The translations under genes were made by a program, and so were the position numbers. Below, piece by piece: positions 53,707 to 62,773 of a stretch of DNA of 64,000 nucleotides. Each line of letters begins with the position of its first letter. Position 1 is the stretch's first letter. The notes beneath the pieces were generated by a model. That model worked only from the letters and a program-made list of their open reading frames with translations. It ran no database searches and was not told the DNA's origin. Source of the stretch: Flavobacterium segetis (GTDB lineage Bacteria; Bacteroidota; Bacteroidia; Flavobacteriales; Flavobacteriaceae); the NCBI RefSeq assembly GCF_900129575.1, contig NZ_FQWE01000008.1, forward strand, positions 62,001-126,000, given 5' to 3'.

Positions 53707-54117
53707 TTAGTCTGTCGTCAAAAAGTCATCATCGTTTTCTGGTTGATAATTTTCTTCATGCATTTCATTATATACAGAATTGATACTCTTTTGGTCGAAG
53801 AAATTAATATTTATGGAGTTCGGACTTGACCCTTCATTTAAAATAATTTCACTTTTTAACGGATTCTCCTTTAAAAAATCATCGTCATTACCATTAATAT
53901 TCTTTTTGGTCTCTTCATCGCTTTCATCACTAAGCTCCTCTGATTTTGGATCGTCTGATGATTTTGTATTTTCTACTTCTGGAATAGCGAATAATTCATC
54001 ACCGCCATTTTCAGAAAAATTTTCAATTGCTTCCTTTTTAATTTTATTGTTTATTCCAACACCTAGTTTAGCAAATAAATACTTGGTGGAAAATCTGCGA
54101 GAATTTTTGTAAGTACG
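53707..54117 (-). pseudogene. Start-less acidic reading frame (3' remnant of a lost gene)
   Basis: The minus strand is open for 136 codons from just after a TAG (54118-54120) to a TAA (53707-53709). It has no ATG, GTG or TTG near its beginning; the only ATG is about 20 codons from the end. It begins basic (RTYKNSRRFSTKYLFAKLGV) and then becomes strongly acidic with many Asp, Glu and Asn, ending DDDFLTTD. Coding-like codon use suggests a real protein C-terminus whose 5' part has been cut away near 54120. I do not recognise the family. The plus-strand serine-rich frame over the same bases is the shadow of this one. Confidence 0.55.
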
Positions 54118-54170
54118 CTAGAACCAGCTATTAATTATACACGCTGGTGGCAGCCGAAGTTCCTTCATAT

Positions 54171-57040: not shown

Positions 57041-57161
57041 TTTTAAAATTTATGAGGTTCTCTTCTTTTTATAGCTACCAAGGGTTGGGTATTTGAAAAG
57101 TTGCGATTTAAAATGCCCAAAATTTCGGTTAATAACTGAACTTAAAAGATAACTAAAATCT

Positions 57162-57941
57162 TTAATTTAGCATTGAACCCTTTATTTTATGTACCGTGTT
57201 AGTTGTAGTTTTTTTCTGCGCAACGATTGAATATACCATTGGAATTTTATTATCTAAATGTTTAATTCTAAATTTTTTAGGTTCAAATTCAAGCATATTA
57301 CGGAAAACATTGAACGGCGAATAATCGTATTCTTGAAAATCATTAATGTTCATTGAACTGGCGAGCAAACTTCCAATAACTTCACTCAAACTATGATTCC
57401 AAGTTACATAAGACTGTGAAATTTCGGCATCTTTATCTGAGTAAGTTCCGTTTTCTGTTTCAACTATTGGTGCTACGTTTAAATAATTGTAACCAATTTT
57501 TTCGAAATTATCATCGAACATCCAAACTACAGGATGGAACTCTACAAATATGAATTTTCCATTTTTTTTTAAGAATTTCGAAATTAATTTTCCCCATTTG
57601 TCTAAATCAGGCAACCACGTTATAGTTCCATAACTCGTGAATACAATGTCGAATTGTTTGTCAAGATGATTTTCCAATTCATACAAATCACAACATATAA
57701 ATTGCGTGTTTGCATTTGTTTCTCTGGCAATTTTTACTGCACTTTCGATTGCTTTGTCTGACAAATCAACTCCCGTAACTTCCGCTCCAAGTCGGCTTAA
57801 AGAAATGGTATCTTGTCCGAAATGACATTGCAAATGTAGAACGGTTTCTCCTTTTATATCTCCAAGTAATTCTAATTCGATTGGGTTTAATGAAGTTTCT
57901 CCTTTTAAAAAATCTTGAAGATTATAAAATTCCGAAGTCAA
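57162..57941 (-). CDS. Class I SAM-dependent methyltransferase, N-terminus interrupted by a stop codon
   Basis: A Rossmann-fold methyltransferase of 259 residues from a TTG at 57941. Motif I is VLHLQCHFGQDTISLSRLGAEVTGVDLS (about 35-62) and the family-specific FYNLQDFLKG and FDIVFTSYGTITWLPDL follow. The same frame runs upstream to an ATG at 58005-58007 through codons that look like the normal N-terminus (MNPEQNYI, then INKHSWNNRTDTHL), but a TAA at 57981-57983 lies between, where a Glu or Gln codon is expected. The protein is thus either a pseudogene or made from the weak TTG start without its first 22 residues. Substrate unknown. Confidence 0.8.
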   Translation of the reverse strand: MTSEFYNLQDFLKGETSLNPIELELLGDIKGETVLHLQCHFGQDTISLSRLGAEVTGVDLSDKAIESAVKIARETNANTQFICCDLYELENHLDKQFDIVFTSYGTITWLPDLDKWGKLISKFLKKNGKFIFVEFHPVVWMFDDNFEKIGYNYLNVAPIVETENGTYSDKDAEISQSYVTWNHSLSEVIGSLLASSMNINDFQEYDYSPFNVFRNMLEFEPKKFRIKHLDNKIPMVYSIVAQKKTTTNTVHKIKGSMLN

Positions 57942-58052
57942 ATGAGTATCAGTTCTATTATTCCATGAGTGTTTGTTAATTTAGATATAATTTTGTTCTG
58001 GATTCATATTTCTATTTATTCTAAAGATTTCAGTCGGTTCTGGAAATTACAT

Positions 58053-58181
58053 ACAACGTTTGGTGTAAGAATAGTTGCGTGGGTTAAACACCTAAAATAA
58101 CAAAAATTGACCGAACCTGTGAAAATTCTGCAGGAATTTTCAAGTAGGCGAGAACTAGAAATTATTTTTACACAATGTTAT
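58053..58181 (-). repeat. attC-like imperfect hairpin element
   Basis: A stretch of about 129 bases between two accessory genes folds into one long imperfect hairpin. The outer arms AACGTTTGGTGTAAGAATAGTT (58055 on) and AACTAG...AATGTT (to 58179) are complementary with bulges; inside, GAAAATTC/GAATTTTC flank TGCAG. It begins TACAACGT and holds TTGCGT about 20 bases in. It lies directly after a gene stop (58190). Shape and place recall integron cassette recombination sites, though the canonical RYYYAAC/GTTRRRY cores are not met. Confidence 0.55.
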
Positions 58182-58189
58182 AAACCGTT

Positions 58190-58678
58190 TTATTTCACGT
58201 AATCTTTGTTTTCAATATCTAATGAATTCAGTTTTATTTTAAGCACCCAAAAAGATTCCTTACTATATTCTATGTCAATAATATCTCCAATCTTAATTTT
58301 GTCAAAAACACTTTGTTTTACTTGATAATGTTTTATATCATTATTTCCCTCAAATTCTAATTCATAATAATTCGTTGCTTCTCTACCTCTTGTCTTAATA
58401 TTTTTATTTAAGACTATTACTTTTGTAACAATTTTAATTCTGTTGTTTAAATCTTTCCTCGAATTGTTTCCAAATATCATATCAAAGACGGTATAACCAG
58501 TTATAGCAAAGAAAAAATATGCAATAATCTTTAGAAATATTGGAGTCGAAGATTCCATAAAGTAAATAATAACGCCAAGAATAATAAAGGCAATAAAAAA
58601 AGCTATATTGGATTGATTTCTTTTGGACTTAATTTTATTAATGTCATCTTCTGTACAATTTAATTCAAATTTCTCCAT
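58190..58678 (-). CDS. Hypothetical membrane protein with two segments
   Basis: A 162-residue protein I cannot assign. It has a charged N-terminus (about 1-24), two adjacent membrane helices (about 25-43 and 47-65) and a cytoplasmic or periplasmic beta-rich domain (about 80-160) that resembles small DUF3592/NfeD-like OB-type modules in pattern only. It lies between two attC-like sequences (58053-58181 and 58728-58762), like a single-gene cassette. No signal peptide cleavage site. Confidence 0.65.
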   Translation of the reverse strand: MEKFELNCTEDDINKIKSKRNQSNIAFFIAFIILGVIIYFMESSTPIFLKIIAYFFFAITGYTVFDMIFGNNSRKDLNNRIKIVTKVIVLNKNIKTRGREATNYYELEFEGNNDIKHYQVKQSVFDKIKIGDIIDIEYSKESFWVLKIKLNSLDIENKDYVK

Positions 58679-58727
58679 TTAATTTATAGTCGATTTCTTT
58701 CAGGAAAGTTCAGATTTTTTAATGGTT

Positions 58728-58762
58728 TACAACGTCAGTCTGTGATAAAACTTGCGTTATGC
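58728..58762. repeat. Partial attC-like element arm
   Basis: TACAACGT at 58729 on, followed by TTGCGTTATGC about 24 bases later, repeats the opening pattern of the element at 58053. The complementary right arm is missing; the transposase remnant begins about 75 bases downstream. An 11-base direct repeat, ATAGTCGATTT, brackets it at 58686-58696 and 58773-58783. Confidence 0.4.
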
Positions 58763-58835
58763 TCTTTCAAAAATAGTCGATTTATTTTATTTAAAGCAAG
58801 AAAAGTTATATATTTAATAATAAAACATATCATAG

Positions 58836-59060
58836 GAATACCGCGCAACCAAATGCGTTTGTAGTTTAGAAGATACTATTTCCTCAGAAAATCCTATTCA
58901 GTTTATAGAAGCTTTTGTAGCAGCTTTATCTTTAGAAGCGTTGGGTTTTTCGGTTCAAACTATCAAAAGCGAAGGTGATCCCAGTTTTGATACTAAAATT
59001 CCCCTTAAATTGTATCTGTATGGGTATTTAAATGGACTTCGCAATTCTAGAAAAGGTTGA
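58836..59060 (+). pseudogene. N-terminal remnant of an IS1182-family-like transposase
   Basis: A plus-strand frame of 74 codons with no start codon, ended by TGA at 59058. It reads SLEDTISSENPIQFIEAFV, then LEALGF, and IPLKLYLYGYLNGLRNSRKG, a close match in pattern to the N-terminal region of IS1182-type transposases (dimerisation domain before the DDE core). The rest of the gene is missing; past 59060 short open bits in other frames occur but nothing continuous. An earlier TAG at 58833 closes the frame upstream. Confidence 0.65.
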
Positions 59061-59271
59061 GAAGAAACTTTTTTTGCCAAAATTTCCTTGTTGCAGAACA
59101 GGCAATTTACACCGAATATTGGTTTTTGATCAGCGTGGTCTGCCTCCTTGGTATCTTGGCGATAGCCAAAGCTCAATTCCCTGTACAAATTAACTTAATG
59201 GGTAAGGCAATTTATGCCCAATCCCGAAGCTTGGAGTGAAGGAAATCATTATAAAAACCATTATGTTTATA
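59061..59271. other. Decayed DNA after the transposase remnant
   Basis: No intact gene. A plus-strand fragment near 59214-59310 reads PNPEAWSEGNHYKNHYVYTA, which may be the tail of an unrelated lost gene. Other frames here are short and compositionally poor. Confidence 0.35.
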
Positions 59272-59302
59272 CTGCAAAAAAAAAGAGGCGTTTTAGCCTC
59301 TT
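59272..59302 (-). terminator. Rho-independent terminator after the 59.4-60.4 kb genes
   Basis: On the minus strand the stem AAGAGGC/GCCTCTT with loop TAAAAC is followed by a run of nine or more T. It would stop transcripts from the two hypothetical genes at 59428-60389. Confidence 0.8.
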
Positions 59303-59371
59303 GTAATATCTCCAATAATTTTACGATAACTCCATAGTGTTGACAGTATGTAATCGATTCCGTTCAACCGC

Positions 59372-59406
59372 GGGTTCATTGTTGGCTTTTCAAGCCCAAC
59401 TAACCC
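59372..59406. repeat. Intergenic hairpin
   Basis: GGGTT (59372-59376) pairs with AACCC (59402-59406) and GTTGGCTT pairs with AAGCCCAAC with one bulge. It is followed by TTGGTGGCAG, a short word that also appears at 54144-54153 beside the start-less frame. It may be the remnant of another cassette-type element. Confidence 0.35.
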
Positions 59407-59427
59407 TTAGTTGTTGGTGGCAGTTTT

Positions 59428-59703
59428 TTATTCAATTGCTTTAATAAATTTTTTCATTTCGTCCATTTTGCCAACTGTAATTCTTGTCCATTTACCTTGT
59501 TCTTCATATATTCTTACTCCTTCAATATTATTATTTTCTAATTGTTTGAAATAATGCTTTTTGTAGTTGGAAAGTGAAAAATATATAAAATTTGTATTTG
59601 AAGAAATGCACTCACAATTTAATTTTTTGAGTTCGCTAATAGTATATTTTCTTATATTTTTATTTAGTAAATAGCAATTTGAAACAAATGTATCATCTTT
59701 CAA
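59428..59703 (-). CDS. Hypothetical protein, 91 residues
   Basis: A small, mixed alpha/beta protein without signal or membrane segment; it contains two Cys (10 and 30) and a C-terminal helix. I do not recognise it. It follows a hypothetical membrane protein gene by 17 bases on the same strand and shares its terminator, so the two are probably one transcript. Its codon use looks like that of its neighbours. Confidence 0.55.
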   Translation of the reverse strand: MKDDTFVSNCYLLNKNIRKYTISELKKLNCECISSNTNFIYFSLSNYKKHYFKQLENNNIEGVRIYEEQGKWTRITVGKMDEMKKFIKAIE

Positions 59704-59720
59704 AGAAGCTATAAGAGAAC

Positions 59721-60389
59721 TTAATTCTTTGAATCTTTATATTTTTTATTCACTAAAAAACTAACTTTATCATTAAATTCTTGCTCGGTTAATAAACCAA
59801 TAGTTTTTGATTTTGTTAGTAAGTTATATTCCTCTGTTTCTTTTAGATCTGCCTTTTTTTTATGTTGTTTTGTACTTAATAAATTTAAACTTAATAGAGT
59901 ATCTAAATCATCTAATTTTTCGTTGTGCCTATTTTCAAGTCGTTCTTTTATTTCCACTGTTATATCTTCTTTTATACCTATAATGGAGTATTTAAAAATT
60001 AAATAGCAATATGGTAAAAATGAATAATAATAGGAATAATAGGTCAGAGAATCCCTTCTTTTAGTGTAGAAAGGGATCGCTAATCCATTTACATCTTCTA
60101 ACAAATAAAACACGTAACTAACTAAAAAAAAGATTAAAATTTTAGAAATTGAATTATTGTCACTCTTAATATCATTGTATAAATTATAAATGATTACCAG
60201 TGAAGAGCAAAAGTAAAGTAAACCTAAATATTCCTCTAGTTGTTTTGCATCGTAGTAATCATAAGGATTGGTATTGTCAACTTTATTAAATTGCACTTGT
60301 AAAGCCAGCTTGATAAGGAAAAAAATGAGGATTTGAACTATAACGAGTACTGGTAGTTGATGATCTTTTTTATAAATAATGTTTTTCAT
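59721..60389 (-). CDS. Hypothetical membrane protein with SHOCT-like C-terminus
   Basis: A 222-residue protein with about four membrane helices (about 14-32, 50-67, 82-98, 120-137). The soluble C-terminal part ends with KTIGLLTEQEFNDKVSFLV, which resembles the SHOCT motif (a short C-terminal helix pair often found in accessory membrane proteins). Function unknown. It precedes a 91-residue hypothetical gene by 17 bases. Confidence 0.6.
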   Translation of the reverse strand: MKNIIYKKDHQLPVLVIVQILIFFLIKLALQVQFNKVDNTNPYDYYDAKQLEEYLGLLYFCSSLVIIYNLYNDIKSDNNSISKILIFFLVSYVFYLLEDVNGLAIPFYTKRRDSLTYYSYYYSFLPYCYLIFKYSIIGIKEDITVEIKERLENRHNEKLDDLDTLLSLNLLSTKQHKKKADLKETEEYNLLTKSKTIGLLTEQEFNDKVSFLVNKKYKDSKN

Positions 60390-60510
60390 AGTTGCAATTC
60401 GTTCAAAGATTTCATGTGTCTGTAGTGTAGGTAATTTTTGTGTCTTACTAATTTATTTCAATGTAAACTTTTATATTGTTTTATAGTTCCCTCTCATAAA
60501 TACTAGATAG

Positions 60511-60939
60511 TTAATTACAAAATCTTTTATATCCAGTACAAGCATCATTGTTTCCTAAATTACATGCTTTTTTAAAGTATAAACAAGCGTTAGGCTTATC
60601 ATTCATTTTTCCATAAATTATAGCTGCTTTCATAGTTGCATCGATATGATTAGAATTTAATTGTATTGCTTTTTTAAAATTTAATAATGCATTTTAATAA
60701 TCTATTTTTTTTTGATAGATGTTGCCTTTGATATAGTAAGAATCTGAGTTATTTGGGTTTAATTTTATAGATTTATTTATCTGTACTAAGGCATTGTCAT
60801 AATCTCCATTGATTAATAATTTTAATGCAGAATTGTAGTTTGTCTCATAATCAGTTTTTTTTGAAGATCCTTGGCTATAAGATGAACTTATAAATACCGT
60901 ACATAAAAGTAGTAAGGTTAAAATCAATTTTGTTTTCAT
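60511..60939 (-). pseudogene. Exported TPR protein gene broken by an internal TAA
   Basis: The minus-strand frame starts with a signal peptide (MKTKLILTLLLLCTVFISSSYS) and a TPR repeat (YNSALKLLINGDYDNALVQI). After KKIDY comes TAA at 60694-60696; the frame then continues for 61 codons as NALLNFKKAIQLNSNHIDAT and a third, Cys-containing repeat (ACLYFKKACNLGNNDAC), ending in a proper stop at 60511-60513. The stop replaces what is normally a Gln or Glu in the TPR helix. The product is therefore an 81-residue truncated form, unless the stop is read through. Confidence 0.85.
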
Positions 60940-61145: not shown

Positions 61146-62081
61146 TTAAGCAAATAACTTAGTTAATCTAAATAGGAAGAAATCAACTTTTCTGACTCCT
61201 CTAAATTGATTTCTGAATGCTTTTATTTTAGCATTAAAGGATTCCGCAGAAGCATTTGTACTTCGTTTATCAAAATAGTTTAATATAGAATGATAGTTTA
61301 TTTTTACAGTATTCATAATGGTGTTAAAGCTCTTAATCCCTAAGTTTTCTACATCATTATACCAATGCGCTAATTTTGTAATAGCAACAGTTTTATCTGT
61401 ATTGTTGTTGTAAATGTTGCGTAAATTTTGACTTAAATAATAAACAGTTTTAATTTCCGGATTTTCTTCAAATAATATTATAGCTCTTTCTTTTTGACTT
61501 TCACTCCATTTATTAGGACTTTTATACAATAGAAATCTACTTCTTGTTAGTAATTGTTTGGCTGTATCTCCATTTGAAAATTCTCTAGAAATAAATGACG
61601 CTTTATTTAGTTTACCTTCAGTTATAGCTGATTTTTCTTGATCTAAAGCATCCCATTTTAATCTAATTCGGACTTCTTGTACAGCTTCTAATGCTAGTTT
61701 TTGAACATGAAATCTATCGGTTACTTGTTTTGCTTTTGGAAAGGATTTTTTCGCAATTAATTTCATACTATTGGCCATATCCAGGGTGATTTCTGTAACT
61801 TGATTACGTTTTTTAAAATCTATTTTCTGTAAATGGTTTATAACAACCTCTGATTTAGTTCCCGCAATAATAACTACAATAGATCCTTTTTTTCCTTTGC
61901 CTGCCTTGTTGGTGACTACTGTATAAAGTTCTCCCATTGATAGGTTTACTTCTTCTATGGATAAATGACTTCCTATATTTTCGGGAAAAATAAGCCATTC
62001 ACTCGCATGTTCGAGTTGCTCCCACGTAGAAAAGTTACTAAGATGTTTTTTGTATTGTCGTTGTAGTTTTTTACCATTCAC
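61146..62081 (-). CDS. ISAon1-family transposase, catalytic part
   Basis: A 311-residue DDE transposase related to the ISL3 type. It has LDMANSMKLIAKKSFPKAKQVTDRFHVQKL (about 98-128; two Asp in the usual D...DRFHV pattern) and the C-terminal TNASAESFNAKIKAFRNQFRG (about 277-297) with the catalytic Glu. It starts at GTG 62081. The same frame is open further upstream to around 62125, overlapping the end of the N-terminal gene in another phase, so a +1 or -2 frameshift could join the two. Confidence 0.9.
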   Translation of the reverse strand: MNGKKLQRQYKKHLSNFSTWEQLEHASEWLIFPENIGSHLSIEEVNLSMGELYTVVTNKAGKGKKGSIVVIIAGTKSEVVINHLQKIDFKKRNQVTEITLDMANSMKLIAKKSFPKAKQVTDRFHVQKLALEAVQEVRIRLKWDALDQEKSAITEGKLNKASFISREFSNGDTAKQLLTRSRFLLYKSPNKWSESQKERAIILFEENPEIKTVYYLSQNLRNIYNNNTDKTVAITKLAHWYNDVENLGIKSFNTIMNTVKINYHSILNYFDKRSTNASAESFNAKIKAFRNQFRGVRKVDFFLFRLTKLFA

Positions 62082-62699: not shown

Positions 62700-62773
62700 T
62701 GACCTTGACTGGATTCAAACCAGTAACCTCTTGAGCCGTAATCAAGTGCGCTATTCAGTTGCGCCACAAGGCC
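62700..62773 (-). tRNA. tRNA-Arg (anticodon ACG)
   Basis: A 74-nt class I tRNA on the minus strand. The acceptor GGCCTTG pairs with CAAGGTC; the anticodon loop is TTACGGC with anticodon ACG (read as ICG after deamination); the T arm contains GGTTTGAATCC. CCA is not encoded. Confidence 0.95.

Follow-up and report, generated by a model that had tools for sequence, protein, structure and literature searches.

An attC-like hairpin element of Flavobacterium segetis and a putative integron-like system in Bacteroidota

Does a long imperfect hairpin that follows a gene stop in Flavobacterium segetis mark a recombination site for gene cassettes, and if so, what kind of recombinase would act on it? The question arises from a 64,000-nucleotide stretch of the genome (contig NZ_FQWE01000008.1, positions 62,001 to 126,000), here called the window and numbered from its own first letter. 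In it the initial annotation, made from the letters alone, had placed a 129-base hairpin at 58053-58181 among single, mostly hypothetical genes, and had suspected a cassette array or its decayed end. We consider it highly probable that Bacteroidota have an integron-like system and that this element is one of its attC-type recombination sites; no recombination was observed, and recombination is inferred.

The window element and its neighbours

The hairpin is present, with its limits corrected to 58051-58183 and its strand to minus. The features that concern us are listed below, where R1 and R2 are the two covariance models described in the next section.

54028..54152, minus: truncated attC-like element (R1 E 1.5e-6; R2 E 1.2e-11)
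57076..57204, minus: decayed attC-like element (R2 E 0.0022; E 0.0159 genome-wide)
57162..57941, minus: methyltransferase gene, directly after the window element
58051..58183, minus: attC-like element, the window element (R1 107 bits, R2 96 bits; family covariation)
58055-58057, minus: R' GTT of the window element (from sequence)
Between 58057 (G) and 58056 (T), minus: predicted crossover of the window element
58177-58179, minus: R'' AAC of the window element (from sequence)
58190..58678, minus: cassette gene encoding a 162-aa protein (no Pfam match)
58057..58732, minus: entire gene cassette of 676 bp, measured between its two cuts (copy in genome G156; start/R'' complementarity 8/10)
58731..58758, minus: what is left of the 3' end of the preceding element, with one arm and GTT (from sequence and a homology edge)

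Only 6 nt lie between the stop of the cassette gene (58190-58678, minus) and the window element. With the plus strand folded, the fold energy of the element was -13.6 kcal/mol (z -1.59), and 14 of 200 shuffles were as good. Energy alone is therefore weak evidence, and the hairpin is established by its homologues and by covariation. Searching Rfam at gathering thresholds returned only two tRNAs in the window and no match at the element. The repeat of the opening that the initial annotation placed at 58728 corresponds to the 3' end of a truncated element (GTT and one arm) and marks the cassette start. This remnant (58731..58758) has no R2 match and provides the upstream cut point of the 676-bp cassette.

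The decayed element (57076..57204, minus) sits at the end of the methyltransferase gene and has CTT in place of GTT, and the complementarity of its R'' to the presumed start of the cassette is no more than 6 of 10 positions. The truncated element (54028..54152, minus) lies 3' of an aldehyde dehydrogenase gene and retains the 5' arm and the middle, the 3' arm being gone. The intervals 58051-57204 and 57076-54152 reach a complementarity of only 6/10 and are unsupported as cassettes. Relatives of the methyltransferase (57162..57941, minus) occur in 48 of the 149 other genus genomes (E<=1e-40). By plain DNA similarity the window element is single in its own genome (E<=0.001); R2 finds nine places at E<=10 and six at E<=0.01, two of them in the window, a third window place having E 0.0159. 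A cassette on contig C20 of the same genome (L117) shows a complementarity of 9/10. No integrase is encoded in the window, as had been stated from the outset. What the window holds is a partly decayed cluster of cassettes that stands alone, apart from the integrase, and the suspicion of an array or its decayed end is supported by relatives elsewhere and by a gene and element that travel as a unit.

The proposal that a hairpin at 59372-59406 is a further element could not be upheld. It has no R2 match and lies at one end of a noncoding block of about 700 bp, shared with other loci, (58728-59429, minus) that contains several hairpins. Parts of this block recur at 70-79% in G156 (L243), in G178 (L086) and on two other contigs of the own genome (L075 and L117). 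An R''-like AAC opens the block directly after a gene stop and its end is a cassette cut; something may have replaced or entered an element here. The block was also considered as one very long attC, with its R''-like AAC start and GTT end (GTC in G156), but the ends pair unconvincingly by eye and this candidate was rejected. The region from the cassettes to a tRNA gene at 62700 looks like a variable hotspot: at 61146-62081 and 59428-60939 it contains an ISL3-type transposase and short fragments (an aminotransferase C-terminus and a TPR fragment).

Distribution, structure and cut point of the element family

Plain DNA similarity recovered seven copies in 4 of 99 relatives, four of the seven in one genome, and was too weak for a survey, so covariance models were used. 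In the loci examined, copies generally lie between a gene stop and the gene that comes next on that strand. The first model (R1), built from the seven copies, had matches in 25 of 100 genomes when E<=1 was allowed, a threshold loose enough for chance matches to be expected, and in 15 of 100 at E<=0.001, with clusters. The second (R2) was built from 57 elements among the R1 matches, using the outer stems only. With R2, 111 of 150 genus genomes have related elements (E<=0.01, with about 1.5 chance matches expected), as do 103 of 296 Bacteroidota genomes, representing 63 of 139 genera (E<=0.001); at these thresholds no R2 match was obtained in 39 genus genomes and 193 phylum genomes, respectively. 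The own genome is included in the counts for both models. Because the candidates scored per genome numbered 20 in the genus scan and 10 in the phylum scan, per-genome counts are lower bounds; the R2 counts rest on an iterated model, and its E-values are rough owing to short calibration. The complete genome G158 contains 54 elements across 35 kb. The covariance-model search suggested in the initial annotation has yielded many related elements in the own genome and in relatives. Absence of the element elsewhere, together with a constant gene order in relatives, would have refuted the cassette reading, and neither was found.

The attC-like stem is conserved by strong covariation. In the 57-element alignment 93.2% of cells are paired, compared with 68.7% after shuffling, and 187 cells are double-changed, compared with 54; sliding the partner strand lowers pairing to 27-39%. 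This alignment was fitted to the model and so leans towards structure. An A.C 1x1 mismatch is kept in 54 of the 57 elements, and the internal loop is a symmetric 2x2 in 54 of 57. Given this loop and the conserved mismatch, the bulged bases of classical attC are absent, and in the consensus of the 57 model-aligned elements the L'' arm is free of extrahelical bases. In all 57 the two sides of the unpaired central spacer differ in length (3 nt versus 5-7 nt).

A larger set of 294 elements (293 distinct) was drawn from alignments A5 (144 elements) and A6 (the best 150 of 214 matches); one element of G158 lies in two overlapping loci and is counted twice. AAC is present in 285 and GTT in 283 of the 294. 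Canonical attC sites have the R boxes RYYYAAC and GTTRRRY, which were met by 14 and 11 elements, respectively, and by only one element in both, in agreement with the early remark that canonical core boxes are not met. Folding with DNA parameters favours the bottom strand in 209 of the 294 elements, as against 47 of 198 control segments from cassette interiors. This is suggestive only with regard to recombination of a folded bottom strand by the integrase, which is an inference.

If circularisation takes place at G|TT, the start of a cassette must complement the outer arm of its own terminal element. All 229 pairs of consecutive same-strand elements 100-2500 bp apart were compared for this property. 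Cassette starts complement their own R'' at 7.96 of 10 positions, whereas shuffled pairs reach 3.58 +/- 0.10 (maximum 3.88 in 1000) and neighbouring wrong partners 3.73-3.78 of 10. Counting distinct pairs once each (206 pairs) gives 7.94/10 against 3.60 +/- 0.10 (maximum 4.01). A hold-out set outside model building, comprising 83 elements and 52 pairs mostly from the named-genome scan described below, gives 7.69/10 against 3.42 +/- 0.23 (maximum 4.31 of 2000). The complementarity extends over 14 nt, interrupted by a single constant mismatch at position ten, and then ends, pairs with less than 40 nt of flank being omitted from this count; at the tenth position the cassette start has A in 99% and the opposite base is C in 80%. 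The longest ORF lies on the cassette strand in 209 of the 229 cassettes and on the opposite strand in 9, with none of at least 50 aa in the other 11, and the distance from stop to AAC is 11-19 nt in the middle half of cassettes. On the strength of these sequence comparisons alone, the predicted crossover is placed at the G|TT of R', as in integrons.

Movement of gene and element as a unit, which had been put forward as a further check, is indicated by the window cassette itself and by duplicated cassettes within arrays. The window cassette has a 94% identical copy in the genome of another species (G156), where it stands in an array of other genes with five model matches. Homology between the two covers window positions 58055-58735 only, with both edges no more than 3 nt from the cuts. 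The 162-aa protein has matches in 9 of the 149 other genus genomes (E<=0.001), exceeding 50% identity only in G156 (94%) and G163 (53%), and with so few matches its gene is not a fixed neighbour. When arrays were compared by alignments with 80% identity over 250 nt or more, each end fell no more than 14 nt from a cut, in the one copy as in the other, in 15 of 56 alignments; a duplicated unit of 596 bp at 100% in G173 is one of them. The remaining alignments include overlaps of adjacent loci, longer units with a neighbouring element, and other repeats.

As for cassette content, 86 cassette proteins were taken from the 116 deduplicated ORFs of at least 70 aa in 11 loci. Pfam recognised 22 families among them (E<=1e-4), 21 in one member and one in two, which leaves at least 63 of the 86 without a Pfam match. 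PADLOC found three families with one member each, and by this library the arrays are not defence arrays.

The associated recombinase and the attI-like site

The initial annotation had looked to a tyrosine recombinase beside other copies of the element, and such a protein was found. Leads came from a search with TIGR02249, which has matches in 149 of 150 genus genomes and in all 14 controls, never above its cut-off; matching nearly everywhere below cut-off, it is useless as a detector on its own. At least 15 of 20 fetched integrase regions contain elements, as judged from 300 of the 377 matches. A scan of named genomes covered the best 80 of at least 592 recombinase stretches, with the phylum taken from record titles. 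Within these 80, elements (E<=0.1) lie near 22 of 41 Bacteroidota recombinase loci and near none of the 39 others. No element was found at the other 19 Bacteroidota loci, and 6 of the 20 Bacteroidota loci with at least 2 kb of downstream sequence have no downstream element. By position, 66 elements are downstream of the recombinase on the same strand, none downstream on the opposite strand, and 5 upstream; one was unplaced, its ORF not being found. Integrase and cassettes are mostly on the same strand, with divergent arrangements in G022 and G123. Element-bearing examples include Flavobacterium enshiense DK69, Algibacter onchidii, Seonamhaeicola aphaedonensis and Winogradskyella ursingii. On a plasmid of Chryseobacterium sp. 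SNU WT5 (NZ_CP041688.1, L249), an integrase and an attI-like site are accompanied by four elements, all on the same strand (E 1e-8 to 0.015); the array also holds an IS110 and a group II intron reverse transcriptase. A Chryseobacterium oryzae plasmid has an integrase and an attI-like sequence and no model match. In the own genome, an intact 347-aa integrase with an attI-like site is located on contig C6 (L075), where R2 finds no element.

Array-associated tyrosine recombinases are usually about 350 aa long. The R-K-H-R-H-Y columns, which we take to be the catalytic residues, are conserved in the integrase alignment A7, and the 17 aligned integrases have a C-terminal SPxDxL. An extra N-terminal domain is present in 15 of these 17 and has no Pfam match in the proteins scanned. 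Residues 1-56 (e.g. in L079:7778-8821:+) are predicted to form a beta-beta-alpha-beta-beta-alpha domain of unknown role, which is absent in the 276-279-aa relatives L088 and L082. A different tyrosine recombinase, of 287 aa, occurs in four near-identical copies in L086 (G178:C1:1001000-1020500), the copies lying in repeat units of approximately 3-4 kb with cassette elements around them.

Of 37 loci chosen by the authors (16 genus, 21 named), 21 have a TAnnTTTG box, presumably the Bacteroidota -7 box, within 50 nt after the integrase stop, 18 of the 21 boxes at 8-13 nt; the corresponding figure is 3% in both controls. From its place between integrase and attI the box probably drives expression of the first cassettes, its function as a working promoter being inferred. 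A loose pattern recovers a TATATACAA|GTT-like end in 11 of 16 genus loci and in 5 of 21 named ones, preceded in several loci by inverted repeats that are possibly binding sites of the integrase. The letters of these repeats (for example in L075 16619-16730, L077, L080 and L087) vary among genomes and their pairing is kept, as seen by eye; several attI regions have a ACCCAAATTTGGGT-like centre. The cassette next to the integrase, the first of its array, has a 100% identical counterpart in another array region both in G100 (1157 bp) and in G045 (1230 bp), the identity starting at the GTT that directly follows the attI-like site. As far as can be read from the letters, both are exact insertions at this site.

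The mechanism we propose starts from what the genomes themselves display, namely cassette units, their apparent cut point, the anatomy of array, integrase and attI, the movement of units and the conserved structure. A cassette would consist of one gene followed by an imperfect inverted repeat of about 133 nt with AAC near its 5' end and GTT near its 3' end. The recombinase of about 350 aa encoded at the array head, inferred to be the enzyme, would cut the R' end of the hairpin at G|TT and insert cassettes at the attI-like site beside its own gene, mostly downstream of this gene and oriented as it is. The substrate would, by analogy with integrons, probably be the folded bottom strand, its single-stranded state being likewise inferred.

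Known integrons and other explanations

Sedentary chromosomal integrons with canonical IntI, attI and attC, of which the Vibrio cholerae superintegron is an example, share with the Bacteroidota system an integrase gene, an adjacent attI-like site and long arrays of oriented single-gene cassettes. They also share the terminal imperfect palindrome, the AAC/GTT core, the G|TT cut, the complementarity of cassette start and own R'', the unequal central spacer and the mostly unknown cassette genes. They differ in that the Bacteroidota integrase is without the IntI insertion and mostly carries the extra N-terminal domain, that the R boxes are not RYYYAAC/GTTRRRY, that conserved A.C mismatches take the place of bulged bases, and that the attI-like site has inverted repeats and the integrase is mostly oriented as the cassettes are. 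For known attC, PMC2727003 gives the cut point as G|TT and an outer pairing of 9-11 nt, compared with 14 nt and a fixed tenth mismatch here.

Could these arrays be ordinary IntI-family integrons with divergent attC sites? The common anatomy and G|TT cut would be expected of them, and so would the shared SPxDxL terminus. A predicted integrase structure (mean pLDDT 83.6, pTM 0.51) has the Vibrio IntI 2a3v as its best Foldseek match (E 4.8e-17), XerA 5hxy following at 1.2e-16, and the best NCBIfam match, NF040815, is named 'site-specific tyrosine recombinase/integron integrase'. The sequences of the enzymes speak against membership. Ten Bacteroidota proteins score 190-217 bits with TIGR02249, for which the cut-off is 265 bits and six canonical IntI score 413-489; the cut-off is exceeded in none of the 150 genus genomes. 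KG..KDR and HxLRH are 64-66 residues apart in the 16 Bacteroidota proteins with the pattern, as opposed to 106-107 in 5 canonical IntI, and a break in the alignment to 2a3v coincides with this difference. Judged by alignment, the Bacteroidota recombinase lacks the IntI-specific insertion in the catalytic domain, a segment that the classification in PMC8138268 treats as essential to the working of integrons, although its conservation in that subgroup is incomplete. A tree of 86 proteins groups canonical IntI in a clade with 100/100 support and leaves the Bacteroidota integrases outside it, the deeper order being weakly supported. With both R boxes in a single element of 294 and no extrahelical bases in the consensus, the sites do not fit either. 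We regard ordinary integrons as an unlikely explanation that nevertheless deserves to be kept in mind.

Recombinases of the XerA/XerC-D type (NF040815; 5hxy) are the best NCBIfam and PDB sequence matches of the integrase and are likewise without the IntI insertion, whereas the Bacteroidota enzyme is linked to attI-like sites and cassette arrays. The window resembles a CALIN (cluster of attC lacking integrase, an IntegronFinder term) in having cassette sites without a nearby integrase, but its sites are not canonical attC and two of them are decayed or truncated. Because the system works like an integron yet fails the membership features of IntI and canonical attC, we take it to be a new variant. 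On balance we lean towards a second, phylum-wide integron type, with large arrays in Bacteroidota, a recombinase outside the IntI clade that lacks the supposedly essential segment, and a hairpin polarity given by A.C mismatches (G.T in the bottom strand) and not by bulges, possibly nearly as common as in the classical groups and at least once on a plasmid. Tools tuned to IntI and canonical attC may miss Bacteroidota arrays, so integrons may be nearly as common there.

If the elements were dispersed REP/RAYT- or MITE-type palindromes moved by a transposase, with neighbouring genes incidental, the many related intergenic palindromes and the presence of own-genome elements on contigs other than that of the integrase would not be unexpected. 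Such palindromes would leave unexplained that elements follow genes on one strand in strict orientation, that the strand bias downstream of integrases is 66 to 0, that a cassette start is complementary to its own terminal element and that duplicated units comprise a gene plus one element. Contradicted by the cassette boundaries, this explanation is very improbable. Least credible of all are Rho-independent terminators or a conserved 3'-end noncoding RNA, which would suit a conserved structure 11-19 nt past stops but have no Rfam match at the element (gathering thresholds) and, as a full explanation, are contradicted by the nearly invariant AAC/GTT at the outer ends and by mobile units with edges at GTT. 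Control of readthrough remains possible as a side role of the element.

The preferred reading, an attC-type site of an integron-like system, concerns a phylum to which integrons as such are not new, since PMC8618304 and PMC9668308 list Bacteroidota among phyla with integrons and an early survey (PMC2426708) records intI for the Bacteroidetes/Chlorobi group. In the text of the IntegronFinder 2.0 survey, which covers complete genomes, one complete integron is named in Bacteroidetes proper, that of Salinibacter ruber (PMC9024848). A search of the open literature, with preprints and most subscription papers outside its scope, yielded no account of such cassette arrays in Flavobacterium or in Bacteroidota at large. 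If the integron-like reading is true, the arrays would serve as a natural test for the features of integrase and hairpin that single-strand recombination really requires. A phylum of soil, water and gut would then own a gene-capture platform, likely with hundreds of unknown cassette genes, and this would account for single-gene turnover in Bacteroidota genomes.
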